Assembly (NCBI GenBank): GCA_018657885.1
Contig: JABHWG010000113.1
Location: 1-32,839 of the forward strand
DNA: 32,839 nucleotides
Reading direction: 5' to 3'
Source of the DNA: Pelagibacteraceae bacterium
Lineage (GTDB): Bacteria > Pseudomonadota > Alphaproteobacteria > HIMB59 > GCA-002718135
Shown: piece after piece, positions 3,817 to 24,124 of the stretch
Layout: each line of letters begins with the position of its first letter
How positions within the stretch are numbered: position 1 is the stretch's first letter
The notes under the pieces: generated by a model
Told to the model about the DNA's origin: nothing
Database searches by the model: none
The model's input: the letters and a program-made list of their open reading frames with translations, nothing else
Program-made: the position numbers and the translations under genes

Positions 3817-3853
3817 TATAGCTGTTATTCTACAATAATTTGCTCGTAAAAAT

Positions 3854-3893
3854 TTACTGTTAAATTAAAAATATTAGAATTTATTACTGTTAA
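3854..3893. promoter_or_regulatory. putA/regulator intergenic direct repeat TTACTGTTAA (3854-3863 and 3884-3893)
   Basis: Two identical 10-bp direct repeats spaced exactly 30 bp start to start in the divergent intergenic region; candidate Lrp/PutR binding sites (inference). Confidence 0.4.
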
Positions 3894-3950
3894 TATGTAT
3901 AATATTGATATAATCTCTTGTTAAAATATATAAATACAAGAATATTTATT

Positions 3951-4388
3951 GTGATTGATAAAATAGATGAACAAATAATTAAGCTAGTGGCCAAAAATGG
4001 TCGCATAAAATTAAGTGATTTAGCAAAACAAGTAAATTTATCTATATCGCCGTGCCAGGCACGTTTAAAAAAATTAGAAGATCTGAAATATATTTTAGGT
4101 TACCACGCAAGAGTAAACTATGAGCAAATGCAAAAAGCTCATGTGGCATTTGTTCAAGTAGTGTTGTCTGACACAAGAGCTAGTGCATTAGAAAATTTTA
4201 ATAGAGAGGTGAGTAAACTGGACAGTATTGAACAATGTCATATGATAGCAGGAAGTTTTGATTATTTATTAAAAGTCAGAACAAAAAATATAAAAGAATA
4301 TAGAATACTTTTATCTGAAAAAATTTCATCTCTTCCAAATGTATCATCGACATCAACTTTTGTGTCAATGGAATCTGTTAAAGATTAA
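3951..4388 (+). CDS. putR: Lrp/AsnC-family transcriptional regulator, divergent from putA (PutR-like)
   Basis: IDEQIIKLVAKNGRIKLSDLAKQVNLSISPCQARLKKLEDLKYI is an Lrp/AsnC helix-turn-helix, followed by an AsnC-type effector domain. The track starts at a TTG (3918), but GTG at 3951 gives the family-typical N-terminus (M/V)IDKIDEQII. Position next to putA suggests PutR. Confidence 0.85.
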   Translation: MIDKIDEQIIKLVAKNGRIKLSDLAKQVNLSISPCQARLKKLEDLKYILGYHARVNYEQMQKAHVAFVQVVLSDTRASALENFNREVSKLDSIEQCHMIAGSFDYLLKVRTKNIKEYRILLSEKISSLPNVSSTSTFVSMESVKD

Positions 4389-4390
4389 AT

Positions 4391-5455
4391 TTATAAAGGT
4401 TGATATTTAATATCGTATTTAAAATATTTAGGACCAACTAAATCTATTGCTTCTTTTGATCGCCAAATTGGATCACAAGGAAGGCCTAATACATTTACTG
4501 AAAGACCGTACTTCATCACCTCAGTTGTTACTGGCTCACCTGTGTTTGCATCAAACAAACAAATTAAATCAGGTGTGGTTGCTAATACTTTATCTCCTTC
4601 CATTGCAATCAAGAATTCATTTTGAAAATCAAGTTTCGCGTTTCTTCCTGCAAAATCTCCTATACCTTCTAACTTTACGACTCCTCTTGTAAAACCTTCA
4701 CCTGCAGTTCTTTCAACATCTCTAACTCTAGCTTGAAATAAATGTTTTCCTTTCAATTCTTTTGCAAGTACTTGATATGCATTGAAAGAATGTTCCTTTA
4801 CAACACAACCGATATAATGAATTAAGGATAAACTATTTTTAATTAAATATTTTTTACACTCTTTAGCTGTCACTGGATATAAGCTCACCATAGCAGAACC
4901 GCCCATTTGAATTGTCAATGCTCTTGCTAATTTTTCTGTCCATTGATTACTGATAGTGTCAAATGTAGCCCCATTTCCTTTGTCATCAATCATTGCCATC
5001 GGAGTAGCTTTAATGCCACCTAATGTGAATGATACCATTTGTAATTCAGGAAATGCTCTACCCATTGCATCTCCGTCGACTATTGGTAAACCTAATTTTG
5101 CTGCAGCAACAAATGGAATAGTGGAGTTTAAACCACCTGCTTCAATGCATAAAATTGCAGCTACTTTTTTTTGCATTAATTTTTCCATCATCGAAACAAG
5201 TTGGGTAAATTCATTTCCAGAAGGAAATTTTTCCATCATGACTGTAGGTGCTCCCATCATCGCTATTGGAAGTATCAGCGCATCATCATCAAGTGTTTCA
5301 ACTTCTATTACTTTTACAGGATCAGCAGTTTCTAGACATTGATTAGTCATTAATCTTCCAACATAAGGATCTCCACCGCCTCCTGACCCAAGCACAGCTC
5401 CTCCAATCGCGATTGCTTCTAATTTATCTTTATCAACTGATGTAATTTTTTTCAT
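4391..5455 (-). CDS. DUF917-family protein
   Basis: 354 aa. N-terminus AIAIGGAVLGSGGGGDPYVGRLM and internal MGAPTVMMEKFPSGNEF, CIEAGGLNSTIPFVAAAKLGLPIVDGDAMGRAFPELQM are typical of DUF917. Last gene of the leftward operon, directly after a short HyuA. Confidence 0.88.
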   Translation of the reverse strand: MKKITSVDKDKLEAIAIGGAVLGSGGGGDPYVGRLMTNQCLETADPVKVIEVETLDDDALILPIAMMGAPTVMMEKFPSGNEFTQLVSMMEKLMQKKVAAILCIEAGGLNSTIPFVAAAKLGLPIVDGDAMGRAFPELQMVSFTLGGIKATPMAMIDDKGNGATFDTISNQWTEKLARALTIQMGGSAMVSLYPVTAKECKKYLIKNSLSLIHYIGCVVKEHSFNAYQVLAKELKGKHLFQARVRDVERTAGEGFTRGVVKLEGIGDFAGRNAKLDFQNEFLIAMEGDKVLATTPDLICLFDANTGEPVTTEVMKYGLSVNVLGLPCDPIWRSKEAIDLVGPKYFKYDIKYQPL

Positions 5456-5459
5456 TTAA

Positions 5460-7001
5460 TTATTTATTCTCCATCTTAAGATCACCAACAACAGTAACAT
5501 TTATTAATAAATTCTTACCTGGTAAATATGATAATGGCATATCGGACACTGCCAACAAATTAATCGTATCTGGATTGGCATTTCTTTTTATAGCAAGATT
5601 GGTTGCCTCATCTGTAACTTGTTTTATAGCAGTCTCCCTATCAATCTTGTCATCAATCAATATAACTTTTGATACTTGACCGCTGACCTGAGCTATTGCA
5701 GCACCAACTGCATTGGCTAAATCATTATGAGGTGGTTTTATAACATTCAGACCATCAATTTCATTATCAAGCATAACACTTCCACCACCAACAGCAATAA
5801 CAGGTATTTTTTCACTTGAAGTTCTTGCTCTCGCAACTTTATCTTCAACCATTTGATCCATTAAATTAATTATATTTTTTTTATTTTTTATTTCAGGAGC
5901 TTCTTTTGTACCTATCTTACATCTCCCATAAGAAACTGCTACATCACTTGCTGTAAGCACATCTCCTCCAAAAACTTTTGCCTTATCTGTTAATTCATGT
6001 CCAACTGATTGAGGACCTACTGTAATCTTCTCAGTATCAATTATAGAACCTCCTCCTAGCCCAAAACTGATTACATCTGGCATAGAAAAATTTGTTCTAA
6101 CATCTGCTACAGTAACATAAGTACCTGCTTGTCTAGGAAACCCATCCTTTACTTCTCCTACGTCAGTAGTAGTGCCTCCAACATCTACAACAAGTGCATT
6201 TTTTTCTTTAGATAAAAAAGCTGCGCCTCTCATTGAGTTGGTAGGTCCACAAGCAAAAGTAAGTACTGGTGAATCTATTACTTCAGAGGATTGAATTAGG
6301 GTACCATCATTTCTAGTAAAAAACATTGAGCATTTAAAATTCATTTTATTACGAAGTTCGTCAAATGACTCTACAACTTCTTTTGCTAATGGTTTTAAAG
6401 TTGCATTGATTAGGGTGGCGTTTTCTCTTTCTAACAATCCCATTCCACCAATATTTTTACTAAGAGAAACTTGTATATTTGGTGAATTTTTTTTTATTAT
6501 GTCAAAAGCTTCTTGCTCCATATCACCTCTCACTGTCGCAAAGACTGAACTTATGGCAATTTGATCACACCCTGCTTTTATTAATTCATTCAATGCAATA
6601 ATTATTTCTTTTTCATCTAATTTTGAAATCTCACTTCCATCCATTTCAAAACCACCTTTAACTAGTTGAAATTTTCCATTCATAGAATCAACTAATTCTT
6701 TTGGCCAATCAGCAAAAGGTAAAATAGACCCACCTGAAGGTAAACAAATTCTAATCAATCCTGTTTTAGCTAATTTTTTTCTTTGGACTATCGCATTTAC
6801 AAAATGAGTAGTGCCCACAATTAAGGCCTCAACATCTTTTGATTCTGTTTTAGCTTGATTAAGGGCAGCTGTAATTGCGTTTTCTACACCAGATAAAATA
6901 TCTTTAGTTGTAGGACTTTTTGCACCCCCTAAAAATTTTTCTGATTGCATTACTACTGCATCAGTATTTGTGCCTCCAACATCTACACCAATTCTTATCA
7001 T
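5460..7001 (-). CDS. hydantoinase/oxoprolinase family protein, short HyuA form (513 aa)
   Basis: ASKHA-type N-terminus MIRIGVDVGGTNTDAVVM, VGTTHFVNAIVQRKKLAKTG, VVDVGGTTTDVG, FGLGGGSIIDTE, PVIAVGGGSVML. Shorter than the two long HyuAs. Confidence 0.9.
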   Translation of the reverse strand: MIRIGVDVGGTNTDAVVMQSEKFLGGAKSPTTKDILSGVENAITAALNQAKTESKDVEALIVGTTHFVNAIVQRKKLAKTGLIRICLPSGGSILPFADWPKELVDSMNGKFQLVKGGFEMDGSEISKLDEKEIIIALNELIKAGCDQIAISSVFATVRGDMEQEAFDIIKKNSPNIQVSLSKNIGGMGLLERENATLINATLKPLAKEVVESFDELRNKMNFKCSMFFTRNDGTLIQSSEVIDSPVLTFACGPTNSMRGAAFLSKEKNALVVDVGGTTTDVGEVKDGFPRQAGTYVTVADVRTNFSMPDVISFGLGGGSIIDTEKITVGPQSVGHELTDKAKVFGGDVLTASDVAVSYGRCKIGTKEAPEIKNKKNIINLMDQMVEDKVARARTSSEKIPVIAVGGGSVMLDNEIDGLNVIKPPHNDLANAVGAAIAQVSGQVSKVILIDDKIDRETAIKQVTDEATNLAIKRNANPDTINLLAVSDMPLSYLPGKNLLINVTVVGDLKMENK

Positions 7002-7008
7002 TTATAAT

Positions 7009-8667
7009 TTATTTTTTATAACCGTAATATTTTTTTGCCTGTTCCTTAGTTATATATTGGTTTAGCAAATCACTTTTAATCATTTCTTTATTTCTTTTTT
7101 TAGGATCCCCAAAACCTCCACCATTACCAGTATAAATTCTTACAATATCACCTGGTTCTAAACCTAATCCAGTAACCACAGAATATTTTTCAATTTTTTT
7201 GTTTTTTCTAATTACCTCAATGTAGTTAGCACTTCCTTCTCTTCCTTTATTAAGCGACCATGGCAATGTTTTTGATCTTGTATAAGCAACTGAAACCCAT
7301 GCATTTTTTGATCTAACACGATAATCCATAATAATACCTTTGCCGCCATTGAATTTTCCTTCACCACCTTCTTGGTTGTTAAGTCTCATTTGATTAACAT
7401 ACAAACCATGTCTTGCCTCATGAATTTCTGCAGGAGTATTAAAAGTATCACCATGAAAGGCAGAAAAATTTGCACTCATTCCATCACCTGCAGCAGAAGC
7501 ACCCCATCCACCAATTTGAGGTTCGATAATAATAAAAGGTTCATTCGTATCAGGATGTGTACCTCCCATAAATGTCCCACATATAGAAGCAAAACTTCCA
7601 GCTGTTGATTTATCTGGATTAAGATGTGAGATTGTTTTCCAAATTAAATCATACGATCTAATATCAGTTTCATAATAAATACCTTGAGCTGCAGGTCTTA
7701 TTGGATTGAACATTGATCCTTCATCACAAATAACTTTAAGCGGTCTAAAAGTTCCAGCATTACAAATAAAATCACTTGAAGTAACGCCCTTGAAAGCCAT
7801 TTGAGCTGATACAACTGTCCCATCATAAGATGCATTATTAGGACCTGTGTCTTGTACTGGATTATTTCTTAAATCTACAATAAATTCTTTATTGGTAATT
7901 GTTACTTTTACTTGGATTTTTTTTCCATTATCCAAATAATCTTCTCCATAATACGTTCCATTTTTTAATTTTTTTAATGAATCTAATGATGAATTCTCTC
8001 CATATTCCATAAAAAGATCAACTGATTTTTCAAAAGTATCTCTGCCATATTTTTCTGATATATCCTTAATTCTTTTCTCTCCAACTCTTATGGATGCGAT
8101 TGCAGCCCACATGTCTCCTTTTGTATACTGAGGCACTCTACTATTAGAAATAATAATATCGATAACTGATTGAATTGGTTTTCCTTGATTAAATAATTTA
8201 ATAACTGGCAATTGTAATCCCTCTTGAAATATTTCTGTTGCATCTGCAGATATTCCACCTGGTGCCATTCCACCTAAATCAGGCCAATGTGCTATGTTTG
8301 CAGTCCATGCAATTCTTTTTTTTCCCGAGAAAACAGGCATCACAACTATAACATCATTTAAATGGGTTACCCCTCCATTATATGGGTCATTGGTTGCGAA
8401 AATATCTCCAGGATTTATATCCTTATCATCAAATTTTTTTAAAACTGCCTGAACAGCCTTATCACACATTGCAATAAAAGCTGGAATACCAGCACCTGAA
8501 GCAGCTATGTTTCCATTTGAATCAGTTACTGCAGTTCCAAAATCTAATACTTCATATATTATTGAACTCATTGCTGTTTTTCTCATTGCAATAAACATTT
8601 CATCACAAGCAGCTTGTAATGAGCTCTGAATTATTTCTACAGTAATCGGATCAATTTTTTTTGCCAT
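7009..8667 (-). CDS. hyuB: hydantoinase B/oxoprolinase family protein (HyuB)
   Basis: 552 aa. IDPITVEIIQSSLQAACDEMFIAMRKTAMSSIIYEVLDFGTAV, GDIFATNDPYNGGVTHLNDV, C-terminal GNGGGFGDPKKRNKEMIKSDLLNQYITKEQAKKYYG. Confidence 0.95.
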   Translation of the reverse strand: MAKKIDPITVEIIQSSLQAACDEMFIAMRKTAMSSIIYEVLDFGTAVTDSNGNIAASGAGIPAFIAMCDKAVQAVLKKFDDKDINPGDIFATNDPYNGGVTHLNDVIVVMPVFSGKKRIAWTANIAHWPDLGGMAPGGISADATEIFQEGLQLPVIKLFNQGKPIQSVIDIIISNSRVPQYTKGDMWAAIASIRVGEKRIKDISEKYGRDTFEKSVDLFMEYGENSSLDSLKKLKNGTYYGEDYLDNGKKIQVKVTITNKEFIVDLRNNPVQDTGPNNASYDGTVVSAQMAFKGVTSSDFICNAGTFRPLKVICDEGSMFNPIRPAAQGIYYETDIRSYDLIWKTISHLNPDKSTAGSFASICGTFMGGTHPDTNEPFIIIEPQIGGWGASAAGDGMSANFSAFHGDTFNTPAEIHEARHGLYVNQMRLNNQEGGEGKFNGGKGIIMDYRVRSKNAWVSVAYTRSKTLPWSLNKGREGSANYIEVIRKNKKIEKYSVVTGLGLEPGDIVRIYTGNGGGFGDPKKRNKEMIKSDLLNQYITKEQAKKYYGYKK

Positions 8668-10739
8668 TATTTTTTCTTTTGAGTGTTAATATGAAGATTG
8701 GCATAGTCATCAACTTTGCATCTTTGCCCAGGAAATACGACAACTGTTGTGCTAGAGTCTTCAACTATTGCTGGTCCATTAAAAACCATATTAGGTTCAA
8801 GTTTATCAAAATCGTATATATCTGAAATACGCTCTCCAAGTTGATCAAAATCAACTTTCCTTTTTGATTTAATTGCTTCTCTAACTTCTCTCCCTGTTTT
8901 TTTTCTTTTCTCCAGCTTGGGTTTTTCAATTTTAGCTACAGCAACTAGATGAAATTGTATAAGTTCTACAGGGTTATCTAAACTATAAGTAAATTCTTTT
9001 TCATACTGCTTATGAAAAGAAATAAGTATTTTATTTAGTTCTTTTTTATCATACGTACCACTAGGAAGTAAAACTTCTACAGAATGGTCTTGTCCCAAAT
9101 ATCTTAAACTAGCATAGCGCTGAAACTGAATTAAGTTTTTATGTATTTTTTCTTTTTTAAAATTAGAGATTGCTTTAGTTTCCATTTTTTTAAATGTTTC
9201 ATTTATTGAACCAAGTGAATCAATATCCATTTTATTTAGCTTAGTTAAAATAAAATCCCTTCTCAAGTCACTCATTAACATACCCCATGCTGAAAATACT
9301 GCAGAGTTTATGGGTATAATCACGTTAGGGATATTTAGTTCCATTGCTAAAGAGGTAGCGTGCATTCCACCACCACCTCCGAAAGCAACTAATGTAAAAT
9401 CTCTAGGATCATGGCCTTTGTTAACAGAAATTAATTTTAAAGCATTTGTCATATTATTATTTGCTATTCTAATAATACCTCTGGCAGTTTCAATTTTAGT
9501 TAATTTTAATTTTTTAGATAATGTGCTGATGTGTTTATCTACAGACTTAATATCAGCATTAACTTCTCCACCACAAAAATATGATGGATTTATTCTTTTA
9601 GTATATAAATTTGCATCAGTAGTAGTGATACTATTTCCACCTTTTCCATAAGATACAGGTCCTGGACTTGCACCTGCACTTTGTGGACCTACATGTAATT
9701 TTTTATAATCATCTACCCACGCTATACTTCCTCCGCCATTACCAATTTCAACAATATCTACAACAGGTAGCATTACAGGGTATCCAGCTGAGGTACGGTT
9801 TTTCTCGATCCAATAATTTGTATTAATTTTCACATTACCATCTTCTATTAATGAACATTTTGCTGTAGTGCCGCCAATATCAAGTGCTATAATATCTTTT
9901 ACTCCAATTAATTTTCCAATTTCAGCGGCTCCTAAAACGCCACTTGTTGGTCCAGATTCAATAATAGTTAAAGGTGTTTTTTTAGTACTTTCAAAAGTAT
10001 CTATACCTCCATTCGATTGCATGACATATGGATTGCCTTTAAATTTATATTTTTTAAGTTCAATAAATAAATTATCTAAATAATTTTTAGCTATAGGTTT
10101 CACATAAGCACAAAGTGCAGTTGTATTTGTTCTTTCATACTCTCTCCACTCCCTTGTAAGCTCACTAGAGGTAACTATTTCAAATTCAGGCCATTGTTGT
10201 TTTATTTTTTTTGCTAATACCTGTTCGTGTTTTGGATTTGCATATGAGTGTAGAAGGCAAATTGCAATTGATTTTACATTATGAGACTTAAATGATTTAA
10301 TAATTTTCTTAAGATCATTTAGCTGTAATTTTTCAATCTCCTTACCTAGAAAATCCATTCTACCAGGAACTTCAGTTCTTAGATATCTTGGAATAAATGG
10401 TTTAGGTTTTTTATAACGAAGATTAAAAAAATCAGGCCTATCTCCTCTTGCAATCTCTAAAGAATCTCTAAAACCTTTTGTAGTAATTAAACCTGTAACC
10501 GAACCTTTTCTTTCAGTTATAGAATTAATTATAACTGTTGTTCCATGTGCAAAAAATATAGCTTCAGAAATAGATATTCCAGATTTTTTTATAGCTTTAA
10601 ATACACCTTGTTCATAATTTGGAGGGGTGGTATCAGATTTTGCGTTAGAAATTTTTTTAGCTTTTTTTGTTTTTTCATCAATTTCAAAATAAACCAGATC
10701 AGTAAATGTTCCTCCAACATCTGTTGCCACTCTAATCAT
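8667..10739 (-). CDS. hyuA: hydantoinase/oxoprolinase family protein (long HyuA)
   Basis: 690 aa. MIRVATDVGGTFTDLVYF, FAHGTTVIINSITERKG, IALDIGGTTAKCSLI, IGNGGGSIAWVDDYKKLHVGPQSAGASPGPVSYGKGG, LVAFGGGGGMHA. Overlaps the downstream hyuB start by 1 nt (TAATG). Confidence 0.95.
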   Translation of the reverse strand: MIRVATDVGGTFTDLVYFEIDEKTKKAKKISNAKSDTTPPNYEQGVFKAIKKSGISISEAIFFAHGTTVIINSITERKGSVTGLITTKGFRDSLEIARGDRPDFFNLRYKKPKPFIPRYLRTEVPGRMDFLGKEIEKLQLNDLKKIIKSFKSHNVKSIAICLLHSYANPKHEQVLAKKIKQQWPEFEIVTSSELTREWREYERTNTTALCAYVKPIAKNYLDNLFIELKKYKFKGNPYVMQSNGGIDTFESTKKTPLTIIESGPTSGVLGAAEIGKLIGVKDIIALDIGGTTAKCSLIEDGNVKINTNYWIEKNRTSAGYPVMLPVVDIVEIGNGGGSIAWVDDYKKLHVGPQSAGASPGPVSYGKGGNSITTTDANLYTKRINPSYFCGGEVNADIKSVDKHISTLSKKLKLTKIETARGIIRIANNNMTNALKLISVNKGHDPRDFTLVAFGGGGGMHATSLAMELNIPNVIIPINSAVFSAWGMLMSDLRRDFILTKLNKMDIDSLGSINETFKKMETKAISNFKKEKIHKNLIQFQRYASLRYLGQDHSVEVLLPSGTYDKKELNKILISFHKQYEKEFTYSLDNPVELIQFHLVAVAKIEKPKLEKRKKTGREVREAIKSKRKVDFDQLGERISDIYDFDKLEPNMVFNGPAIVEDSSTTVVVFPGQRCKVDDYANLHINTQKKK

Positions 10740-14491: not shown

Positions 14492-14529
14492 AATTTTTAT
14501 CCTCCCAAAATAAAATATTTAAGTTTACT

Positions 14530-14545
14530 ATGGTAACGCTACCAT
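14530..14545. promoter_or_regulatory. candidate LacI-family operator, site 1 (ATGGTAACGCTACCAT)
   Basis: Near-perfect palindrome with central CG in the divergent hyuA/hyuB intergenic region. Its reverse complement recurs exactly at 16359-16374. Confidence 0.8.
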
Positions 14546-14580
14546 GATAGAAATATTAATTCAACAAATATTATATTTTT

Positions 14581-16287
14581 ATGATCAGAACTTTTCAGTC
14601 TAAAACAAGTTATGAAAACATTGATGAAAACATTGATCCGGTATTAGTTGAAATAATCAGAAATAGTCTCAACTCAGCTGCTGAACAGATGAAGAGAGTT
14701 TTAATTAGAACTGCATTTTCTCCAATAATTTATGAGGTGTTAGATTTTGCAAGTGCAATTTATGATAAAAATTTTTGTATGCTTTCTCAATCACCAAGCT
14801 TACCTGGCTTTATGGGAACATTAAGTTTTTGTGTACAAGCTGCTGTAGAAGAAGTTGGGGGTGAAGAAAATTTATATGAGGGAGATATAATTTTATATAA
14901 CAACCCATATGGTTCAGGATCTCATTCTCAAGATGCAGCTATCGTTATGCCAGTATTTCTCAAACACAAAATATTAATTGGATACACAGCTATTAAAGCA
15001 CACTGGCTTGATACTGGTGGGAAGGAACCATACTCTACTGATACGGTTGATGTATTCCAAGAAGGAACTATTTATCCAGGTTTAAAGCTTTACAATAAAG
15101 GTCAACTTGTAGAAGACATTTATAAATTAATTGTCGCTAACTCACGAGTGCCTAAGGCTATAATTGGAGATCTTAATGCCCAATTAAATGGAGTCAAAGC
15201 GGGTGCTTCAGCTCTACAAAGGATTGTTAATAAGTTTGGTATTCAAACTTTTGATTCTTGTGTCTCTAAAATTTATCAACATGGAGAAAAATTGGTAAGA
15301 AAAACTATATCTAAAATACCTGATGGAAAGTATTCGGGATGGGGTCAAATGGATAGTAATGGTGTAGATAAGGATCCTGTTAAATTTAAAATTAATATAA
15401 ATGTAAAAGGATCTGATCTTGAGTTAGATTTTTCAGAAACTCCTGAACAACAAAATGGGCCAATTAATTGCCCTCTTCCTTCAACAGTTTCAAAGGCAAG
15501 AGTAGCATTCAGTATGATGGCTGGAAATGGAGAGCAGCCAAATGAAGGATTTTTTAAACCCTTAATTATTAAAACAAAACAAGGAACTATGTTTGATCCT
15601 ATTTCTCCTGCACCTTGCTTCTTAAATGGTTGGGCAGGGCTTCAGGTAATAGAAATAATATATAAAATATTGTCTGAAAAAATTCCTCACGCATTTCCTG
15701 CTTCAAGTGGTGGTTGTTTAGGAGCAGCAGTTTGGTGGGGTAAAAGAAAAAATAATAACGAGCCATGGGCTGACGGTTCTCCTCATCCAATTGGACAGGG
15801 AGGTTTTAATGGAGGTGATGGCATTACTTCGATGCATCATAATTCAGCTGGTACAAGAATCTCCCCAACAGAAATTTGGGAAAGTAGAAATCCTTGGCTA
15901 GTCAAAAAAATTGAATTAGCTCAAAATTCTTGTGGACCAGGAGAGTATAGAGGTGGTTTAGGTTTAGACCTAGAGTTTGAAATGTTAGAAGAAACATACG
16001 TAACTACAGTTGTAGAAAGAACTAAATTCCCTCCATGGGGTATAAATGAGGGAGGCGAGGGTAGAGCTAATAATGTAATTTTAAATAGAAAAAATGAATC
16101 TTCAAACGTACCAAAAAAAACAGGTTTGAAATTACATAAGGGAGATAGCTTGATCTTTAAAACAGGTGGTGGTGGTGGATATGGGAAATCATCATTAAGA
16201 TCAAATAAAAAAATTTTAAATGACTTAAAACAAGGTTACATATCCATTGAATATGCAAAAAAACATTATCCACAATTAAAAGTTTAG
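14581..16287 (+). CDS. hyuB: hydantoinase B/oxoprolinase family protein (HyuB), divergent copy
   Basis: 568 aa. DPVLVEIIRNSLNSAAEQMKRVLIRTAFSPIIYEVLDFASAIYDKN, GPINCPLPSTVSKARVAFSMMAG, C-terminal GGGGGYGKSSLRSNKKILNDLKQGYISIEYAKKHYP. Closely related to the 10732-12453 product. Confidence 0.95.
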   Translation: MIRTFQSKTSYENIDENIDPVLVEIIRNSLNSAAEQMKRVLIRTAFSPIIYEVLDFASAIYDKNFCMLSQSPSLPGFMGTLSFCVQAAVEEVGGEENLYEGDIILYNNPYGSGSHSQDAAIVMPVFLKHKILIGYTAIKAHWLDTGGKEPYSTDTVDVFQEGTIYPGLKLYNKGQLVEDIYKLIVANSRVPKAIIGDLNAQLNGVKAGASALQRIVNKFGIQTFDSCVSKIYQHGEKLVRKTISKIPDGKYSGWGQMDSNGVDKDPVKFKININVKGSDLELDFSETPEQQNGPINCPLPSTVSKARVAFSMMAGNGEQPNEGFFKPLIIKTKQGTMFDPISPAPCFLNGWAGLQVIEIIYKILSEKIPHAFPASSGGCLGAAVWWGKRKNNNEPWADGSPHPIGQGGFNGGDGITSMHHNSAGTRISPTEIWESRNPWLVKKIELAQNSCGPGEYRGGLGLDLEFEMLEETYVTTVVERTKFPPWGINEGGEGRANNVILNRKNESSNVPKKTGLKLHKGDSLIFKTGGGGGYGKSSLRSNKKILNDLKQGYISIEYAKKHYPQLKV

Positions 16288-16358
16288 AATTAATCAATTA
16301 TAAACCCTAAAATTTACTCTTTTGTACGTAAAAACAACATTGTTAAATATTTATATTC

Positions 16359-16374
16359 ATGGTAGCGTTACCAT
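16359..16374. promoter_or_regulatory. candidate LacI-family operator, site 2 (ATGGTAGCGTTACCAT)
   Basis: Exact reverse complement of site 1. The identity extends to 19 nt, TCATGGTAGCGTTACCATA. Lies 22 bp upstream of the likely ATG of the binding-protein gene (16397). Confidence 0.8.
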
Positions 16375-16396
16375 ACTGAAATATTTAGGAGGCAAA

Positions 16397-17977
16397 ATGA
16401 AAATATTTAAAATAAATATATTAGCTTTTTTAGTTACCTCATTATTTAGTTTTAGCATTTTTGCTGGGGGAACTCTAAGGCTAGACGAAGTTGCAATTGG
16501 GGAGGCGGACCCTGCAAAAGCTACCGACTTTGCTGATGGTATCATAATGGAGAATGTATATGACGCTCTTGTTACTGAACCTCAGGGTGGTGGACCAGTA
16601 ATTGGTAAACTAGCAAAGGACTGGGAAGTTAGCAATAATGGTACTACAATTACTTTTCATTTAAATGAAAATGTTAAATTCTCTAGTGGGAATGATATGA
16701 CTGCTGATGATGTAGTTTACTCTTATGAGAGATTAATGGGATTAAAACTTGGATGGTCATATCTTTTTGATGGTTGGGTTAAGGGAATAAAAAAAATAGA
16801 TAATCATAAAGTTCAATTTGAACTAAATGAACCTTACGCTCCTTTTATGTCCTCATTAGTTCGTTTTTATATTGTTGATTCAGAAACATTAAAAGCAAAT
16901 GAAAGTGATGGAGACTGGGGTCAGGAATATCTTCTTGCAAACTCAGCTGGTACAGGGGCATATTCAATTACTGCCCATGATCCAAATGTTGAAACAAGAA
17001 TGGCTAAAAACAATAACTATTTTTTAGGTATTGCTGAAATAGCTCCAAATGAAGCTATACTAAGATATAACTTAGATGCTCCAACTGTAAGAACTTTAAT
17101 TTCTAACGATGAGCATGACATAAGTAGTAACTGGCTACCTACAGATGTTAAAGCAGCAATTGCAGACTCTGGTGATAAGCTGGCAAAAGTAGTAAGTGCT
17201 GGTGGATGGTATTTTAAAATTAATACTACTAGAGCTCCATTAGATGATGTTAACTGTCGAAAGTCTCTTGCTTATGCACTTGATTATGACTCTCTTGTTG
17301 GAACTTTTCAAGTTACTGATGATATAGCTGCAGGTCAAAAAGCTAGAGGACCTATTCCTCAAGGAATGATTGGGTATTCTGATGATGTACCACTAGTGGA
17401 ATATAATTTAGATAAAGCTAAAGATTATTTATCTAAATGTAAGTACAGTGGTGATGATCTCAAAATTACTATTAATTGGATAGCAGAAGTTCCTTTTGAA
17501 GAATCATGGGCTCTAATTCTGCAACAAGGTGCTATGGCTATTGGTTATGAAGCTTCAGTAGAAACTTTACCATGGGCTGTTTTTACTGAGCAAGTTACTA
17601 AACCAGAAACAACACCAAATTTAAGTATTGTTGCAGTGCAGGCGCAGACACCTGATCCAGATGGATTAATATATAATATGTATCATTCTGCAGCAGCTGG
17701 TACTTGGCAATCTACTGAGTGGGTACAAGATGATAATATTGATTCAATGCTTAATGCTGGGAGAACAACGATTGATGGTCAAGAAAGAGTAGCCATCTAT
17801 GAAAGCTTTCAACAAGCTATTGTGGATATGCAACCAGACTTGTTCATTAGTGATTTAGTAACAGTATATGCTATGAGAGATGAAATCAATGCACCAACAC
17901 TTGAAGATTCAGCGACATATGGATTTTCAACTATGGCGCAAAACTTCTCTTTCAGATTAATGGAAGTTCCTAACTAA
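16397..17977 (+). CDS. ABC transporter solute-binding protein, family 5 (peptide/nickel/oligopeptide type), secreted
   Basis: ATG at 16397 preceded by AGGAGG (16387-16392). Signal peptide MKIFKINILAFLVTSLFSFSIFA. SBP_bac_5 features: LAKDWEVSNNGTTITFHLNENVKFSSGNDMTADDVVYSYERLM, NNNYFLG, RKSLAYALDYDSLV, QTPDPDG. The track start at 16322 (TTG) would place the operator inside the CDS and is less likely. Confidence 0.93.
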   Translation: MKIFKINILAFLVTSLFSFSIFAGGTLRLDEVAIGEADPAKATDFADGIIMENVYDALVTEPQGGGPVIGKLAKDWEVSNNGTTITFHLNENVKFSSGNDMTADDVVYSYERLMGLKLGWSYLFDGWVKGIKKIDNHKVQFELNEPYAPFMSSLVRFYIVDSETLKANESDGDWGQEYLLANSAGTGAYSITAHDPNVETRMAKNNNYFLGIAEIAPNEAILRYNLDAPTVRTLISNDEHDISSNWLPTDVKAAIADSGDKLAKVVSAGGWYFKINTTRAPLDDVNCRKSLAYALDYDSLVGTFQVTDDIAAGQKARGPIPQGMIGYSDDVPLVEYNLDKAKDYLSKCKYSGDDLKITINWIAEVPFEESWALILQQGAMAIGYEASVETLPWAVFTEQVTKPETTPNLSIVAVQAQTPDPDGLIYNMYHSAAAGTWQSTEWVQDDNIDSMLNAGRTTIDGQERVAIYESFQQAIVDMQPDLFISDLVTVYAMRDEINAPTLEDSATYGFSTMAQNFSFRLMEVPN

Positions 17978-17987
17978 TATTATCTTT

Positions 17988-18013
17988 AAACCACCCTTTT
18001 TTAAGGGTGGTTT
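17988..18013 (+). terminator. strong hairpin followed by T-rich tract between binding-protein and permease genes
   Basis: AAACCACCCTT-TTTT-AAGGGTGGTTT: 11-bp perfect stem with a 4-nt loop, followed by attttattttac; begins 10 nt after the SBP stop. Confidence 0.75.
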
Positions 18014-18026
18014 ATTTTATTTTACA

Positions 18027-19046
18027 TTGAACATTAAACTTTATTTATTACGAAGATTTTATAGTGCAGCAATTGTATTAATTGGTGTTTCAATATTAAT
18101 ATTTATCATTGCCAGAATGATACCTGGTGACCCTGCAAGGATGGCATTAGGGCCAACAGCTACTCAAGAAATGGTTGAGAAATATAGAGATAAATTGCAC
18201 TTAAATGACCCTATTCATATTCAATATTGGTTTTTTATTAAAGGCATCACAAAGGGTGATTTAGGAGAATCAGTTTATACTAAAAGAAAAGTAACCACTG
18301 ATGTATCTACATACTTTCCAGCAACTCTAGAATTAATTATTTTTGCTTCTCTAATTATGATTTTTGTAGGAGTCCCTTTAGGGATATTAGCAGGAAGATT
18401 TAAAGACAAAGCAATAGACAATATATCAAGATTTATTTCCTTACTTGGGGTTGTTACACCCAGTTTTGTTTGGGCAGTTTTTCTTATGATTATTTTTGCT
18501 TTTTATTTAGATATTTTACCTGTTGCTGGCAGATTATCACAAGATACTGTTGCTCCTGAAAGAATAACAGGTCTGATAATTCTTGATAGCATCATTAGAG
18601 GTCAATTTAATGTAACGATTGATGCATTAAAACATATTATATTACCTGCTCTTGCTCTTTCACTTGGTGCTCTAGGACAAGCCTCGAGATTAACAAGGTC
18701 AAATATTACTGAGGTCTATGATAAACAATATATAGAAATGGCGAGAGCATATGGTTACAATGAATTTAAAATTGCAACTAAATACGCTCTTAAACCTGCT
18801 ATGATTCCGACTTTAACTATATTAGGTTTAGATTTTGCGGCTATGTTGGGAAATGCTTTTCTTGTAGAGTTTGTTTTTGCATGGCCAGGTATTGCCAAAT
18901 ATGGGGTTCAAGCAATTTTATATAAAGACCTTAATGCAATTACTGCCACAACAATGATAATAGCTACTTTCTTTGTTTTTACAAATTTAATTGTTGATTT
19001 AATAGTGGCATATCTAAATCCAAAAATTAGATTGAGTGGAAAATAA
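18027..19046 (+). CDS. ABC transporter permease, DppB/OppB-like (TTG start)
   Basis: LLRRFYSAAIVLIGVSILIFIIARMIPGDPARMALGP, GQASRLTRSNITEVYDKQYIEMARAYGYNE (EAA loop), multiple transmembrane segments. Confidence 0.93.
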   Translation: MNIKLYLLRRFYSAAIVLIGVSILIFIIARMIPGDPARMALGPTATQEMVEKYRDKLHLNDPIHIQYWFFIKGITKGDLGESVYTKRKVTTDVSTYFPATLELIIFASLIMIFVGVPLGILAGRFKDKAIDNISRFISLLGVVTPSFVWAVFLMIIFAFYLDILPVAGRLSQDTVAPERITGLIILDSIIRGQFNVTIDALKHIILPALALSLGALGQASRLTRSNITEVYDKQYIEMARAYGYNEFKIATKYALKPAMIPTLTILGLDFAAMLGNAFLVEFVFAWPGIAKYGVQAILYKDLNAITATTMIIATFFVFTNLIVDLIVAYLNPKIRLSGK

Positions 19047-19891
19047 TGAAATTATTCAAATCTAGAGGCTGGTATAAATTTTCTAAAAATCCACTTTCTG
19101 TTTTAGGCTTATTAATTGTTTCATTAATAGTTTTGATGGCAGTATTTGCAAATTATTTAACTCCATTTCCTGAGCATGCAGGGCCTTTTGTAGATATACC
19201 AAATAAAATTAAATCTCCTTCATCAACTTACTTTTTCGGTACTGACAAGATTGGAAGGGACTCTTTTTCAAGGATAATTTTTGGATACAGAACATCGCTA
19301 TATTTAGGTGTAATTGTTTTATGCATTGCTGTTCCAATTGGAACAAGTCTTGGTTTAGTTGCTGGATATTTTGGAGGAAAAATAGATGCTATAATAATGA
19401 GAATAACAGATATTTTTTTATCAATTCCTCCACTTGTATTAGCTTTATCAATAATGGCATTTTTAAAACCTACTTTAACTAACGCCATGATAGCTGTATC
19501 AATGATGTGGTGGCCTTGGTATACTCGACTAGTCTATAATTTAACAAGATCTATTAAAAATGAAGGTTTTGTTGTTTCTGCTAGAATAGTTGGCGCTTCT
19601 AATTTTCATATTATTTTTAAAGAAATTTTACCTAATTGTAGCGCTTCACTAATTACAAAAATTACCTTGGATATGGGCTTTGTTATCTTAATAGGCTCAT
19701 CTCTTAGTTTTTTAGGCTTGGGTGTTCAACCTCCCACTCCAGATTTAGGGACAATGGTTTCACAAGGATCAAAATATTTACCTGATATTTGGTGGTTGTC
19801 AGTATTTCCTGGTCTAGCAATTTTAGTCATAGTACTTGGTTTTAACTTGTTAGGGGATGGTCTTAAAGATTTATTCGATGTAGAGTTATGA
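19046..19891 (+). CDS. ABC transporter permease, DppC/OppC-like
   Basis: YFFGTDKIGRDSFSRIIFGYRTSLYLG, EGFVVSARIVGASNFHIIFKEILPN, SSLSFLGLGVQPPTPDLGTMVSQG. Overlaps both neighbours. Confidence 0.94.
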   Translation: MKLFKSRGWYKFSKNPLSVLGLLIVSLIVLMAVFANYLTPFPEHAGPFVDIPNKIKSPSSTYFFGTDKIGRDSFSRIIFGYRTSLYLGVIVLCIAVPIGTSLGLVAGYFGGKIDAIIMRITDIFLSIPPLVLALSIMAFLKPTLTNAMIAVSMMWWPWYTRLVYNLTRSIKNEGFVVSARIVGASNFHIIFKEILPNCSASLITKITLDMGFVILIGSSLSFLGLGVQPPTPDLGTMVSQGSKYLPDIWWLSVFPGLAILVIVLGFNLLGDGLKDLFDVEL

Positions 19892-20742
19892 CAATACTTT
19901 CTATTAAAAATCTAGAGGTTAAATTTAAGCATTTTGAAGGAATTACAACTGCACTAAAAAAAATATCATTAAATATAAAACATGGTGAAAAAGTTGCATT
20001 GGTAGGAGAATCTGGTTCTGGTAAATCTGTTACAGCTAGAATGATATTAGGATTATTATCTAATCCAAATATTAAAAAAAGTGGAGAAATATTTTTCGAA
20101 AACAAAGACCTTTTGAAAGAAAGTAGTTCACAAATAAAAAAAATTCGAGGTAACGATATATCAATGATTTTTCAAGACCCAGTCTCATCCATGAATCCCT
20201 TTTTTACTGTAAGAAAGCAAATGTTACAGGCACTAGAAAATCATAACAAAAACTATGATAAAAAAAATATAGATGAATATTTTATTAATCTTCTTCGTGA
20301 TGTAAAAATTGAAGACCCTCAAAGAGTTCTTAATTCATACGCTTTCCAATTAAGTGGGGGTATGGCTCAGAGAGTAATGATCAGTATGGCTATGATTAAC
20401 AAGCCAAAATTAATACTCGCAGATGAACCTACAACCGCTTTAGATGTTACGGTTCAAAAAACAGTATTAAAAATAATGAAAGAAATAATTAGTCAAAAAA
20501 AAATGTCTATGTTGTTGATTAGTCACAACTTGGGGGTTGTAAGAGAATTTGCTGATAGAATTTATGTAATTTATCAAGGATCGATTTTAGAAGAAGGAAC
20601 CACTGAGCAAATTTTTAATTCACCAGGACATATTTATACACAAACACTTTTACGAGCTATTCCTAAAATCAATAGTTCACAACTACCTAGTCTTAATGCT
20701 GAAAATATTAATTATTTAAGCCAACCTAAATTTACTCATTAG
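19888..20742 (+). CDS. ABC transporter ATP-binding protein, DppD/OppD-like
   Basis: Walker A GESGSGKSV, signature LSGGMAQRV, Walker B LILADEPTTALDV, H-loop LISHNLGVV. ATGA overlap with the upstream gene. Confidence 0.95.
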   Translation: MTILSIKNLEVKFKHFEGITTALKKISLNIKHGEKVALVGESGSGKSVTARMILGLLSNPNIKKSGEIFFENKDLLKESSSQIKKIRGNDISMIFQDPVSSMNPFFTVRKQMLQALENHNKNYDKKNIDEYFINLLRDVKIEDPQRVLNSYAFQLSGGMAQRVMISMAMINKPKLILADEPTTALDVTVQKTVLKIMKEIISQKKMSMLLISHNLGVVREFADRIYVIYQGSILEEGTTEQIFNSPGHIYTQTLLRAIPKINSSQLPSLNAENINYLSQPKFTH

Positions 20743-20744
20743 AT

Positions 20745-21527
20745 ATGTCAGAACCTTTATTAAAAATACAAAATGTTAAAAAAATTTTTAAAGTAGGCTT
20801 TTCTAATGTTATTGCTGTAAACGATGTTAGCTTTAATATTGAAAAACATGACTCAGTGTCAATTGTGGGAGAGTCAGGATCAGGTAAAACAACTTTAGCA
20901 AATTTAATTCTTGGGATTGAAGAACCCACCGCTGGTACAATTTTATATAATGACAAAAAAATTAATTTTAACGATAAAGGATTAAGAAAAAAAATTCAAT
21001 TCGTTCAACAAAATCCCTTATCATCTCTAAATCCAAAAAAAACCATTTATCAAACTTTAGAATTACCACTTAAAATTCATAATATTTGTCCTCGAGAAGA
21101 TGTAAAAAGTAAAATAATAGAATTATTAAGATATGTTGATTTAGATCAAAGTTACCTGGAGAGACATCCATATTCTTTATCAGGTGGGCAAAGACAACGA
21201 ATATCAGTGGCAAGAGCTCTAGCTTGTGAACCAGAAATAATAATTTTTGATGAACCTACTTCCGCTTTGGATGTTTTAATTCAATTAAAAATTCTAAACT
21301 TACTTGCTGAAATTAAAGAAAAACTAAATCTTACATATATTTTTATCACTCATGATCTGGCAGTAGTAAGAAATATTTCAGATAAAACAATAGTTATGAA
21401 TAAAGGAAATATAGTTGAAATGAATGATACACAAAAGGTGTTTGAGTCTCCAAAACAAGAATATACAAAAGAATTAATAAGATCAATTCCAACAATTACT
21501 GATGAAGAGGAGGCTGCAAAACCATGA
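20745..21527 (+). CDS. ABC transporter ATP-binding protein, DppF/OppF-like
   Basis: Walker A GESGSGKTT, signature LSGGQRQRISVARAL, Walker B IIIFDEPTSALDV, H-loop FITHDLAVV. Confidence 0.95.
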   Translation: MSEPLLKIQNVKKIFKVGFSNVIAVNDVSFNIEKHDSVSIVGESGSGKTTLANLILGIEEPTAGTILYNDKKINFNDKGLRKKIQFVQQNPLSSLNPKKTIYQTLELPLKIHNICPREDVKSKIIELLRYVDLDQSYLERHPYSLSGGQRQRISVARALACEPEIIIFDEPTSALDVLIQLKILNLLAEIKEKLNLTYIFITHDLAVVRNISDKTIVMNKGNIVEMNDTQKVFESPKQEYTKELIRSIPTITDEEEAAKP

Positions 21528-22012
21528 ATAAATTAGAAAAAGAAATTTATAATATTTATTTAAAATATGAGAGCCATGAAACTGTCATTAAAAAAGTAGT
21601 TGCATTAATACGCAAAGAAATAGGTTTCAAGTTATTAACTTTCATGATTTTTAGTAACAATCAAAAATTTGCAAAAAGAATATATTCTTCAGATGAAAAT
21701 AAATATCCAATTGGCAAATCTAAAAAATTACCAAACAATTATTGGGCTGTTATGACTGTACAAAAAAGACGCTCTTTTATTGGTAATAACAAAAAAATAA
21801 TAGAAAAATATTTTTATGATCATAAAATCATTACTTCACTTGGCTGTGAAGCAATTCTTAATCAAGTTGTAACTTATAATAAAAAAACTATCGGATGTAT
21901 TAATATTTTACACAAAAAAAACTATTTTACAAAAATACATCAAGAGAAAATGAATATTATTTCAAAGTGTGTAGTGGCTCTTTTCTTAGATAAACAAAAG
22001 GAAATTAAATAA
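21524..22012 (+). CDS. small GAF-like domain protein
   Basis: 162 aa, overlaps both neighbours. C-terminal half GCEAILNQVVTYNKKTIGCINILHKKNYFTKIHQEKMNIIS resembles a GAF fold (strand 'kkTIGcInil'). Assigned by pattern recognition only. Confidence 0.6.
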   Translation: MNKLEKEIYNIYLKYESHETVIKKVVALIRKEIGFKLLTFMIFSNNQKFAKRIYSSDENKYPIGKSKKLPNNYWAVMTVQKRRSFIGNNKKIIEKYFYDHKIITSLGCEAILNQVVTYNKKTIGCINILHKKNYFTKIHQEKMNIISKCVVALFLDKQKEIK

Positions 22013-23115
22013 TGAATAATAGAGTAGAAAAAATTTATAAAATTCTTGATAATTCAAACCTAGATGCTGTAGCATTAGTCCCAGGATCAAACTTTAAATA
22101 CATAACTGGTGGAAATTTTCATCTGATGGAAAGGCCTACAACTCTAATAATTACTAAAAAAAGAGAATTAATTGCTATTCTGCCATCATTAGAAGTTGAC
22201 AGTTTTAATAAACTTGGTCTTTCTGCAAATGTAATAAGCTGGCATGATAAAAATGGTTACAACGATGCATTTAAAGAAGCGAGTGAAATTATTGGAGATA
22301 TAAAAATAATAGGCGTCGAAGGACAAAGAATCAGATTTTTTGAAACAGAAGCCTTTAAAGAAAATTTTTCTAAAATAACTCTATTAAACTTTCACAAGGA
22401 AATATCTTCCATAAGACTTAATAAAGATAAAGAAGAGGTAGATTATTTAAGTAAAGCAATTAATATTTCTGAAGTTTCTCTAGAAAACACCTTAAATTAT
22501 ATAAAAATTGGGATGAGTGAACTTGAGGTTAAACAGTTTCTAATCCAGCAACTATATCAAAATGGGGCTGAAGGTATTTCTTTTGATCCAATTGTATTAA
22601 GTGCTGCAAATTCTGCTCTTCCTCATGGACATTCCTCTGAAAATAATAAATTAAAAAAAGGTGATGCCATTTTATTTGATTTTGGAGGAACATACCAAGG
22701 TTTCAATGCAGACATTACAAGAACTTTTTTTCTAGAAGAAATAAATGAAATACAAAAAAATGTTTACAATAACGTACTTGAAGCAAATTTAATTGGAATT
22801 AAAAATTCAATTATACCTAAAACTATGCATGAAATTGATGACTCAACTACTAATGTTTTAGAAAATGGAGGATTTAAAGAATTTATTGTCCATAAAACTG
22901 GACATGGTTTAGGTTTAGATGTGCATGAAGATCCATATATCGTAAGAGGTAATCACTCTAGCTTAGAAGAAGGCATGATAATTACAATAGAGCCAGGCCT
23001 CTATTTACCTGGTAAATTTGGAATAAGAATAGAAGATGATGTTTTGATTACAGACAACTCTCCAAATGTTCTTACAAATTTTTCTAAAGAAATAAGAATA
23101 ATAAAAAATGATTAA
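22012..23115 (+). CDS. M24-family metallopeptidase (Xaa-Pro peptidase / PepQ-like)
   Basis: 367 aa. All five metal-ligand motifs appear intact: DFGGTYQGFNADITRTFF (two Asp), HKTGHGLGLDVHEDP (His), ITIEPGLYLPG (Glu), IRIEDDVLIT (Glu). Confidence 0.92.
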   Translation: MNNRVEKIYKILDNSNLDAVALVPGSNFKYITGGNFHLMERPTTLIITKKRELIAILPSLEVDSFNKLGLSANVISWHDKNGYNDAFKEASEIIGDIKIIGVEGQRIRFFETEAFKENFSKITLLNFHKEISSIRLNKDKEEVDYLSKAINISEVSLENTLNYIKIGMSELEVKQFLIQQLYQNGAEGISFDPIVLSAANSALPHGHSSENNKLKKGDAILFDFGGTYQGFNADITRTFFLEEINEIQKNVYNNVLEANLIGIKNSIIPKTMHEIDDSTTNVLENGGFKEFIVHKTGHGLGLDVHEDPYIVRGNHSSLEEGMIITIEPGLYLPGKFGIRIEDDVLITDNSPNVLTNFSKEIRIIKND

Positions 23116-24124
23116 AAAAAATGCAACAATCATTGATGTGGCAAAACTTGCTAATGTAGGGACGATGAGTGTTTCAAGATTTTTTAAAAATTCTTCACTT
23201 GTTTCTCCACAACTTCAGAATAGAATAAGTGAGGCAGCAAAAAATTTATCCTATACCCCAAATCCTATTGCGTCATCTCTTGCCTCCAGAAACACAAAAA
23301 TAATTCCTATTTATATTCCATATCTTCGATTTGCAGCTATTCATTATATGAGAAGTATAAACAAAGTTTTACACAAACAAGGTTTTCAAAATTTTTTACT
23401 TAGCAATGACGGTATATCAAGCGAAGAAAAAATATTTGAAAATATACTAAAATGGAACCCTCAAGGATTAATAATAGTGGGAAATATTACTTCACGAAAT
23501 GTCAGAAAAAAACTTATGGAAATAAAAATTCCTTTGGTAGAAACAGCTACAAGTAATCCAGTAGATACATTTGTTGGTGTTGACTATGAAAATGCTGGTG
23601 TTCGTATGGCAGATTATTTGATAAAAAAAAATTATAATAACATTGCTTTTGTTGGAACAAGTTTGGAGTCTAAATCTTTACACACTTCTCTTATCTATAA
23701 AGGCTTTAAGAAAACAATTCAAAAACACGGTATGAAAATTAGTCAATTAATAAACTATAAGGAAAAAGAAAAAGACAATCTGCTAACAAAGAGTCAAAAT
23801 CCTGGTGCAGACTCTATGAGTAAAATTATTTCCTCTAAAGAAAAAATTGACGTAGTTGTTTATGCAGATGACTTATTTGCTTTAGATGCTCATATTTTTT
23901 GTAAAAAAAATAATATTAAAATAAAAAAAGATATTAGTCTTTCAACTTTTAGTGGAACTATACCTGAAATATTCGATGTTAATCCATCAATTACATCCAT
24001 AGATATGGATCATAAAAAAGTAGGTTTACTTGCTGCAGAATTATTAATTAAAAAATTAAATAATAAAACTCATAAAAAAATTAACTACATTGAATCCAAT
24101 TTTATTATTGGAGGAAGTGCATAA
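23108..24124 (+). CDS. LacI-family transcriptional regulator (GntR(Eco)-like HTH)
   Basis: ATIIDVAKLANVGTMSVSRFFKNSSLVSPQLQNRISEAAKNLSYTPNPIASSLASRNTKII is a LacI-type HTH plus hinge, followed by a periplasmic-binding-like domain (VGVDYENAGVRMADYLIKKNYNNIAFVGTS). Confidence 0.95.
   Translation: MIKKNATIIDVAKLANVGTMSVSRFFKNSSLVSPQLQNRISEAAKNLSYTPNPIASSLASRNTKIIPIYIPYLRFAAIHYMRSINKVLHKQGFQNFLLSNDGISSEEKIFENILKWNPQGLIIVGNITSRNVRKKLMEIKIPLVETATSNPVDTFVGVDYENAGVRMADYLIKKNYNNIAFVGTSLESKSLHTSLIYKGFKKTIQKHGMKISQLINYKEKEKDNLLTKSQNPGADSMSKIISSKEKIDVVVYADDLFALDAHIFCKKNNIKIKKDISLSTFSGTIPEIFDVNPSITSIDMDHKKVGLLAAELLIKKLNNKTHKKINYIESNFIIGGSA

Follow-up and report, generated by a model that had tools for sequence, protein, structure and literature searches.

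The systems closest to the locus described here are two-subunit enzymes of the hydantoinase/oxoprolinase family. For the caprolactamase CapAB, a model has been presented in which the HyuA-type subunit activates the carbonyl group with adenosine triphosphate (ATP) and the HyuB-type subunit performs the hydrolysis at a metal site, whose Asp-His-Asp-His tetrad is required (PMC8453981). Acetophenone and acetone carboxylases (5L9W and 5SVB) are built from related subunits. A large number of genes that carry the annotation "oxoprolinase" resemble CapA/CapB more closely than they resemble confirmed oxoprolinases, and the idea that some of them encode cyclic dipeptide hydrolases has been offered as speculation only (Otzen et al., PMC6061476). 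In a 2013 study, no peptidase cleaved the cyclic dipeptides tested, and the responsible enzymes were called unclear (PMC3852281). Furthermore, the trans-3-hydroxy-L-proline operon of Agrobacterium vitis S4 (Avi_7022, 4K7G; PMC4113996), which feeds proline, contains a HyuAB pair together with an ATP-binding cassette (ABC) importer and an Ldh-family reductase; the searched text of that paper contains no study of HyuAB function. Here, we examined a 32,839-nucleotide stretch of DNA (the window), which is one complete contig (JABHWG010000113.1) of the assembled genome of a Pelagibacteraceae bacterium (1.63 Mb, 84% complete) and carries a 20-kb block of hydantoinase/oxoprolinase genes next to the ATP-synthase operon. 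The block is a replaceable island, and its very probable role is the import of a ring-shaped amide and the ATP-dependent opening of the ring. The substrate is probably linked to proline, and we assign a probability of roughly 45% to the full model, in which a (hydroxy)prolyl cyclic amide (a diketopiperazine being the likeliest candidate) undergoes ring opening, X-Pro cleavage, and proline oxidation. The enzyme family is known, and the operon architecture is a new variant of it; neither this architecture nor its link to 3-hydroxyproline and proline metabolism was found in the literature searched, which comprised open-licence texts.

A sequence-only reading of the window had listed seven hydantoinase/DUF917 genes, a Dpp-type importer, a GAF-like protein, an M24 peptidase, and a LacI regulator, and open reading frames (ORFs) and Pfam profiles (HyuA, HyuB, S-Me-THD, which is the former DUF917, M24, LacI, and SBP_bac_5) confirmed this inventory. 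The same reading had counted three HyuA/HyuB modules; gene order, trees, and sequence identities instead revealed two HyuA-HyuB pairs, a solo HyuB (HyuB3), and a pair consisting of a short HyuA (HyuA3) and the DUF917 protein. On the minus strand, hyuA1 (14491–12446, 681 amino acids) and hyuB1 (12453–10732, 573 amino acids, PF02538 at 515.9 bits) encode the ATP-site and metal-site subunits of pair 1, followed by the corresponding genes of pair 2, hyuA2 (10739–8667, 690 amino acids) and hyuB2 (8667–7009, 552 amino acids, PF02538 at 503.7 bits), and then by hyuA3 (7001–5460) and the DUF917 gene (5455–4391). Successive genes overlap by 8, 8, and 1 nucleotides or are separated by 7 and 4 nucleotides, so that the operon is translationally coupled. 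Both pairs scored over the PF01968/PF02538 cut-offs, the HyuA phosphate motifs (including DxGGTxTD and DxGGT) are intact in both, and the metal tetrad is intact in HyuB1, HyuB2, and HyuB3. The phosphate motifs, the tetrad, and the order of the two subunits are as in CapAB (6YRA) and N-methylhydantoinase (7HK5), and by analogy the HyuAB enzymes of the window may work by the mechanism modeled for CapAB. The two pairs have diverged from each other, with HyuA1 and HyuA2 sharing 34–36% identity. At the positions corresponding to CapA 269/302, HyuA2 and all pair-2 relatives compared have Glu/Lys, whereas HyuA1 and its close relatives have Met/Asp.

The best NCBIfam models for these proteins were the caprolactamase subunits, and the Lys of HyuA2 at the position of CapA Asp302 is shared with Apc alpha' of acetophenone carboxylase (PMC8453981). 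Both observations would suit a caprolactamase- or carboxylase-like chemistry on lactams or ketones, apart from amino acids, with M24 and PutA (see below) as chance neighbors; neighbors can be accidental at this locus because it is an insertion hot spot. However, all scores were below the curated equivalog cut-offs of NCBIfam, at best 488.6 and 450 against 1000 for CapA, 219–266 against 1000 for CapB, and at most 262 against 1500 for ApcC and 189 against 1250 for ApcA. The window proteins are 26–35% identical to CapAB and N-methylhydantoinase, fall in separate clades, and lack the vicinal Cys410-Cys411 pair of CapB. In contrast to those enzymes, the window has two pairs, an extra HyuB, an importer, and a peptidase in one regulon; in contrast to the carboxylases, no carboxylase-specific extra subunit gene was seen, and the context is one of importer and peptidase. 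Because M24, GAF, the substrate-binding protein, and HyuA2B2 also keep together in otherwise unrelated settings, we regard a lactam or ketone role as very unlikely. The placement of all modules inside a single characterized substrate clade, which the sequence-only reading had considered an outcome damaging to it, was not observed: HyuA and HyuB lie outside the caprolactamase and carboxylase models, as far as could be tested with trees that held no characterized 5-oxoprolinase sequence.

On the plus strand, hyuB3 (14581–16287) diverges from hyuA1, and the genes from hyuB3 to the LacI gene mostly overlap or nearly do. A Dpp/Opp-type importer follows, consisting of a periplasmic substrate-binding protein (SBP) of the SBP_bac_5 family (16397–17977, PF00496 at 225.5 bits), dppB-like and dppC-like permeases (18027–19046 and 19046–19891), and dppD-like and dppF-like ATPases (19888–20742 and 20745–21527); the latter four were assigned by reading, operon position, and syntenic homologs. 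The ORF call of the SBP opens at 16322, and the start that carries the signal peptide is probably at 16397. The two ATPases (19888–21527) are short, at 284 and 260 amino acids, against the 325–330 amino acids of the Dpp-type ATPases that a different contig of this genome encodes. Next come a stand-alone GAF-fold protein (21524–22012), an M24 metallopeptidase of the Xaa-Pro peptidase type (22012–23115, PF00557 at 202 bits), and a LacI-family regulator (23108–24124, PF00356, with GntR as the nearest NCBIfam model, below its cut-off). Pfam gave no match over cut-off for the GAF protein; its AlphaFold model (predicted local distance difference test score of 93) matched GAF domains of the PDB in Foldseek, with a best E-value of 2.5e−7. 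The M24 protein has the fold of the Xaa-Pro dipeptidase/aminopeptidase P family, with Xaa-Pro aminopeptidase and dipeptidase as its best PDB matches, and retains all five metal ligands (D223, D234, H298, E327, and E341). An ectoine-type role for this peptidase was rejected, with DoeA model scores of 70 and 52 against cut-offs of 575 and 613.

A 16-bp near-perfect palindrome, ATGGTARCGYTACCAT, has exactly two mismatch-free copies in the 1.63-Mb assembled genome, and both are in the block: ATGGTAACGCTACCAT at 14530–14545, in the divergent hyuA1/hyuB3 promoter region, and ATGGTAGCGTTACCAT at 16359–16374, ahead of the importer genes. The number of matches with at most two mismatches expected in the window was 0.01. 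Because the palindrome fronts both hyuA1/hyuB3 and the importer, the two strands form one regulon. Both copies are kept in a relative with the same arrangement (L004), and one is kept in partly sequenced loci (L012/L106); the palindrome was not found in the fetched loci lacking the LacI gene, and this gene was found only in relatives carrying the palindrome. Together with the LacI helix-turn-helix domain, the palindromes at the target promoters indicate LacI/GntR-type regulation at predicted sites, and the LacI protein presumably binds both operators and represses.

The block adjoins atpC, and all three HyuA genes detected in the assembled genome are on this contig. The nearest relatives in the genome collection were marine single-cell genomes and MarineAlpha5 bins, which, judging from their names, we take to belong to AEGEAN-169/HIMB59. 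Among 162 genomes from the order, 13 had HyuA1 orthologs (at least 74% identity), and every one of the 13 belonged to the family of the window genome; this count is a lower bound because many genomes are incomplete. A search with HyuB3 through 24 genomes of the sister family found none. In two close relatives (G026, C24:7574–9610; G479, C36:1829–3838), the HyuA1 match contains one internal TAG, which may be close to the C-terminus or be a sign of a shortened or decaying copy. In relatives, the core B2-A2-B1-A1<>B3-SBP-DppBCDF-GAF-M24 is syntenic. HyuA3, DUF917, and LacI fall outside this core and occur only in close relatives, except that HyuA3-DUF917 is also present in one further genome (G020). 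As a core of at least 10 genes is syntenic in relatives and all the HyuA genes of the genome are located here, the block is not a chance assembly.

The locus beside atpC (window positions 2–4388 and, in the relatives' loci L098–L117, the region 3' of atpC) is an insertion hot spot within the genus, and its contents differ between genomes: elsewhere it is empty or holds an amidohydrolase, putA-putR only (in G497, with putR as the immediate neighbor of atpC), a cis-3-hydroxyproline dehydratase set, or a protein of about 870 amino acids. In some relatives, the core adjoins putA and, within the stretches fetched, is not near atpC. In variant islands (L067, L068, and L069), an Rbs-type importer and a single diverged HyuAB replace the Dpp importer and both pairs; the GAF protein and M24 are kept, and so, as a rule, are putA and the cis-3-hydroxyproline dehydratase. 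In A. vitis and Devosia, the pair-2 HyuAB likewise has a neighboring sugar-type importer, similar to those of the variant islands. Replacement islands at fixed chromosomal positions have been described in the same order (HIMB59 flexible genomic islands, PMC10734472); unlike the present block, those are phosphate/phosphonate islands, and a search of the text of that paper gave no mention of hydantoin, oxoprolin, or dipeptide. Hydantoin was not mentioned in any of the AEGEAN-169/HIMB59 papers whose text was searched.

A search with HyuB2 retrieved pair-2 operons from distant lineages. In Qingshengfaniella, genes for an SBP, two permeases, two ATPases, GAF, HyuA, and HyuB are followed by an Xaa-Pro peptidase and a second HyuB; Roseateles has the same series through HyuB and then a racemase and aminopeptidase P. 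The Thermus operon consists of a racemase, SBP, permeases, ATPases, Xaa-Pro peptidase, HyuA, HyuB, and HyuB, with no annotated GAF, and that of Ketogulonicigenium is HyuA2B2-M24-SBP with ABC genes. The SBP of the window is 40–46% identical to the binding proteins of these four operons (44–46% for the first three), GAF homologs of 29–34% identity adjoin HyuA2 in Qingshengfaniella and Roseateles, and HyuB2 is 50–57% identical to HyuBs from M24/GAF/Dpp operons of several phyla. The operon of pair 2, importer, GAF, and M24 thus recurs in Alpha- and Betaproteobacteria and, in part, in Thermus and Bacillota. Because pair-2 operons recur with such related SBPs and GAF proteins, the importer, pair 2, GAF, and M24 appear to form a single ancestral unit, to which pair 1 and HyuA3-DUF917 would be additions. 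The sequence-only reading had proposed stepwise catabolism of a cyclic-amide or peptide-like nitrogen compound with a dedicated importer and had counted a lack of joint conservation of the gene set in related genomes as evidence against it; as far as could be tested, no such lack was observed. A single catabolic unit with its own importer is borne out by the shared operator, the syntenic core, and the orthologous SBP fixed beside HyuAB in other phyla; its three-module basis fell away, and the substrate, which had been left blank, is now pointed to by the neighbors in relatives as a (hydroxy)proline-yielding cyclic amide.

The link to proline comes from several neighborhoods. The window carries putA (769–3816, minus strand; NF008869 at 1270.9 against 747), encoding proline dehydrogenase/glutamate-semialdehyde dehydrogenase, in the same variable locus as the island, with an Lrp/AsnC-type, putR-like regulator gene (3918–4388, plus strand) beside it. 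In relatives, putA often adjoins the island, and a cis-3-hydroxyproline dehydratase is present in addition. The HyuA1 clade comprises A. vitis, Ketogulonicigenium, and one further genome (G392), with support of 100/100, and HyuB1 is 55–58% identical to its homologs there; no further pair-1 case was found among the relatives of G392 or in a phylum-wide sample. These pair-1 relatives (52–58% identical) include the one inside the trans-3-hydroxy-L-proline operon of A. vitis, which differs from the window in lacking M24, GAF, PutA, and LacI and in having an SBP only 26% identical to that of the window. In Ketogulonicigenium and G392, pair 1 is accompanied by an Ldh-family gene and an M20D aminoacylase; superfamily members near proline racemases (MLD2 neighbors) are proline-ketimine reductases (PMC4113996). 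Pairs 1 and 2 are within about 20 kb of each other in Ketogulonicigenium and A. vitis, and in the haloarchaeon Natrononativus both are adjacent, with only an importer besides and no M24 in the cluster, although the pair-1-like member groups weakly (93/75). Pair 2 stands with a proline-racemase-family gene in Devosia, and the pair-2 relative of Parageobacillus (Bacillota) reads HyuA-HyuB-cupin-Xaa-Pro peptidase-PruA-proline dehydrogenase.

The hydrolases of these clusters bear on whether the ring is a hydantoin. A hydantoin opened by HyuAB yields an N-carbamoyl amino acid, which requires a carbamoylase. In a pathway for hydantoins and thiohydantoins, DUF917 would desulfurize the thiohydantoins, HyuAB would release N-carbamoyl amino acids, and a carbamoylase encoded elsewhere would finish the route; the family name, the membership of DUF917 in the S-Me-THD family, Asp/Glu racemase-family (hydantoin-racemase-like) neighbors in several pair-2 operons, and one unlinked carbamoylase-type gene in the window's own genome are in keeping with it. 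However, the hydrolases in the annotated pair-1 and pair-2 operons are M24 or M20D, the latter scoring 331 and 328 bits on TIGR01891 (cut-off, 153.75) and only 25 and 44 on the carbamoylase model (cut-off, 204). Hydantoin fits less well because the cluster hydrolase, where it is M24 or M20D, is a peptidase or aminoacylase and not a carbamoylase. In addition, DUF917 falls well short of either desulfurase cut-off, and the proline and hydroxyproline enzymes are left unexplained, making this pathway unlikely. ATP-dependent 5-oxoprolinase activity is likewise known for the family (PMC8453981), and PutA also ends in glutamate, so that HyuAB could open 5-oxoproline while M24 cut pyroglutamyl-prolyl or other X-Pro peptides to proline and glutamate. 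We judge this to be quite unlikely, since it does not explain the 3-hydroxyproline dehydratases, the proline-ketimine-type reductases, or the existence of two diverged pairs, and many genes annotated as oxoprolinases are closer to CapA/CapB.

A prolyl diketopiperazine fits best because it accounts for a peptide-type importer, ATP-dependent ring opening, an X-Pro peptidase, and proline oxidation together. We infer a route in which the Dpp-type importer would take up a proline-containing cyclic dipeptide, HyuA2 would activate an amide carbonyl with ATP, and the metal site of HyuB2 would open the ring to a linear X-Pro-type dipeptide. M24 would then split this dipeptide, and PutA would oxidize the released proline to glutamate. 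A second, related ring may be opened by HyuA1B1, for which HyuB3 would be an alternative metal subunit; this ring would probably be a stereoisomeric variant or one of the 3-hydroxyproline type. HyuA3 with DUF917 may act as an accessory module on a third type of ring. LacI would repress hyuA1, hyuB3, and the importer via the two palindromic operators. On this basis, we suggest, as a doubtful but possible extension, that importer-GAF-HyuA2B2-M24 is an ATP-dependent system for degrading diketopiperazines, new at the genetic level, that is spread over several phyla and carried as a replaceable island by abundant oligotrophic ocean bacteria; it would couple ring opening to X-Pro cleavage and proline oxidation, with the second pair serving hydroxyprolyl or stereoisomeric rings.

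Several points weigh against the diketopiperazine model. No enzyme with an assayed substrate was encountered in either HyuAB clade, and no diketopiperazine-hydrolysis gene was found for comparison (PMC3852281). The M24 of the window is below the PepQ equivalog cut-off (NF040821, 196 against 630). M24 was in the cluster in five of the nine lineages reached by HyuB searches (Qingshengfaniella, Roseateles, Thermus, Ketogulonicigenium, and Novosphingobium, but not A. vitis, Devosia, Mycetohabitans, or Natrononativus); Planococcus and Parageobacillus give no independent support, as they were chosen via an M24 search. M24 alone is not diagnostic because several plasmid M24 neighborhoods (Ruegeria, Sulfitobacter, Haladaptatus, and Cytobacillus) lack HyuAB. 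The pair-2 HyuAB of Mycetohabitans stands without M24 or importer, and pair 2 of A. vitis is adjoined by an unclassified "Zn-dependent hydrolase", which leaves some scope for a hydantoin route. The racemase-family genes and the carbamoylase-type gene mentioned above also suit the hydantoin pathway. Finally, the window's own assembled genome lacks a cis-3-hydroxyproline dehydratase; its proline-racemase-family gene, on another contig, scored 424 against the dehydratase cut-off of 550 and has Ser90 but Cys256, where the proven dehydratase has Thr256, which weakens a 3-hydroxyproline route in this genome.

The locus and its relatives provide an operon that is concrete enough to be tested, has diagnostic residues, and is anchored beside a proven 3-hydroxyproline dehydratase. 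If the diketopiperazine model is true, it would offer a genetic way to study how streamlined ocean bacteria turn over a stable class of organic nitrogen, and many hydantoinase/oxoprolinase annotations would be corrected.

HyuB3 is a paralog of HyuB1 (59% identity) and its sister within the AEGEAN-169 lineage, with moderate support (91/87). Its pocket residues are altered; however, the Asp-His-Asp-His tetrad is kept, so that HyuB3, judged by these four residues, is not a dead copy. Second HyuBs with an intact tetrad also occur in Qingshengfaniella (L137:15901–17451) and Thermus (L138:13689–15263), and these are of the pair-2 type (45–46% identical to HyuB2), whereas HyuB3 is of the pair-1 type.

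HyuA3 (513 amino acids) is not a full-length HyuA: it has no GxxPGP motif and no C-terminal domain, and the Hydantoinase_A profile matches it only up to position 174 of 291. It belongs to a five-row clade with the short HyuAs of Mesorhizobium, Planococcus, and Parageobacillus (support, 100/100). A short HyuA is found beside DUF917, with no HyuB between them, in Mesorhizobium, Qingshengfaniella, Peribacillus, Parageobacillus, Planococcus, and Novosphingobium, suggesting that DUF917 may stand in for HyuB in such pairs. The DUF917 protein of the window (354 amino acids; PF06032 and PF20906), the probable partner of HyuA3, is a member of the domain family and scores under the cut-offs of the two NCBIfam models for thiohydantoin desulfurases (107 against 450 and 88.7 against 440); the term "thiohydantoin desulfurase" gave no match in the literature searched. 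The same two adjoining genes are widespread on plasmids (42–49% identity), often with their own cytosine permease or ABC importer, whereas the window pair forms the tail of a HyuAB operon.

In Novosphingobium (L142:16147–19582), TonB receptors accompany racemase-HyuAB-Xaa-Pro peptidase, with racemase-DUF917-short HyuA nearby, which would represent the same toolbox with outer-membrane receptors in place of the ABC importer. Another contig of the window genome (L123, C12) carries an operon encoding an EutC-like cyclodeaminase, a pyridoxal phosphate (PLP) enzyme, M20D, M24, the proline-racemase-family protein, and an Ldh-family oxidoreductase, and this second operon may encode an ectoine- or hydroxyproline-type pathway.

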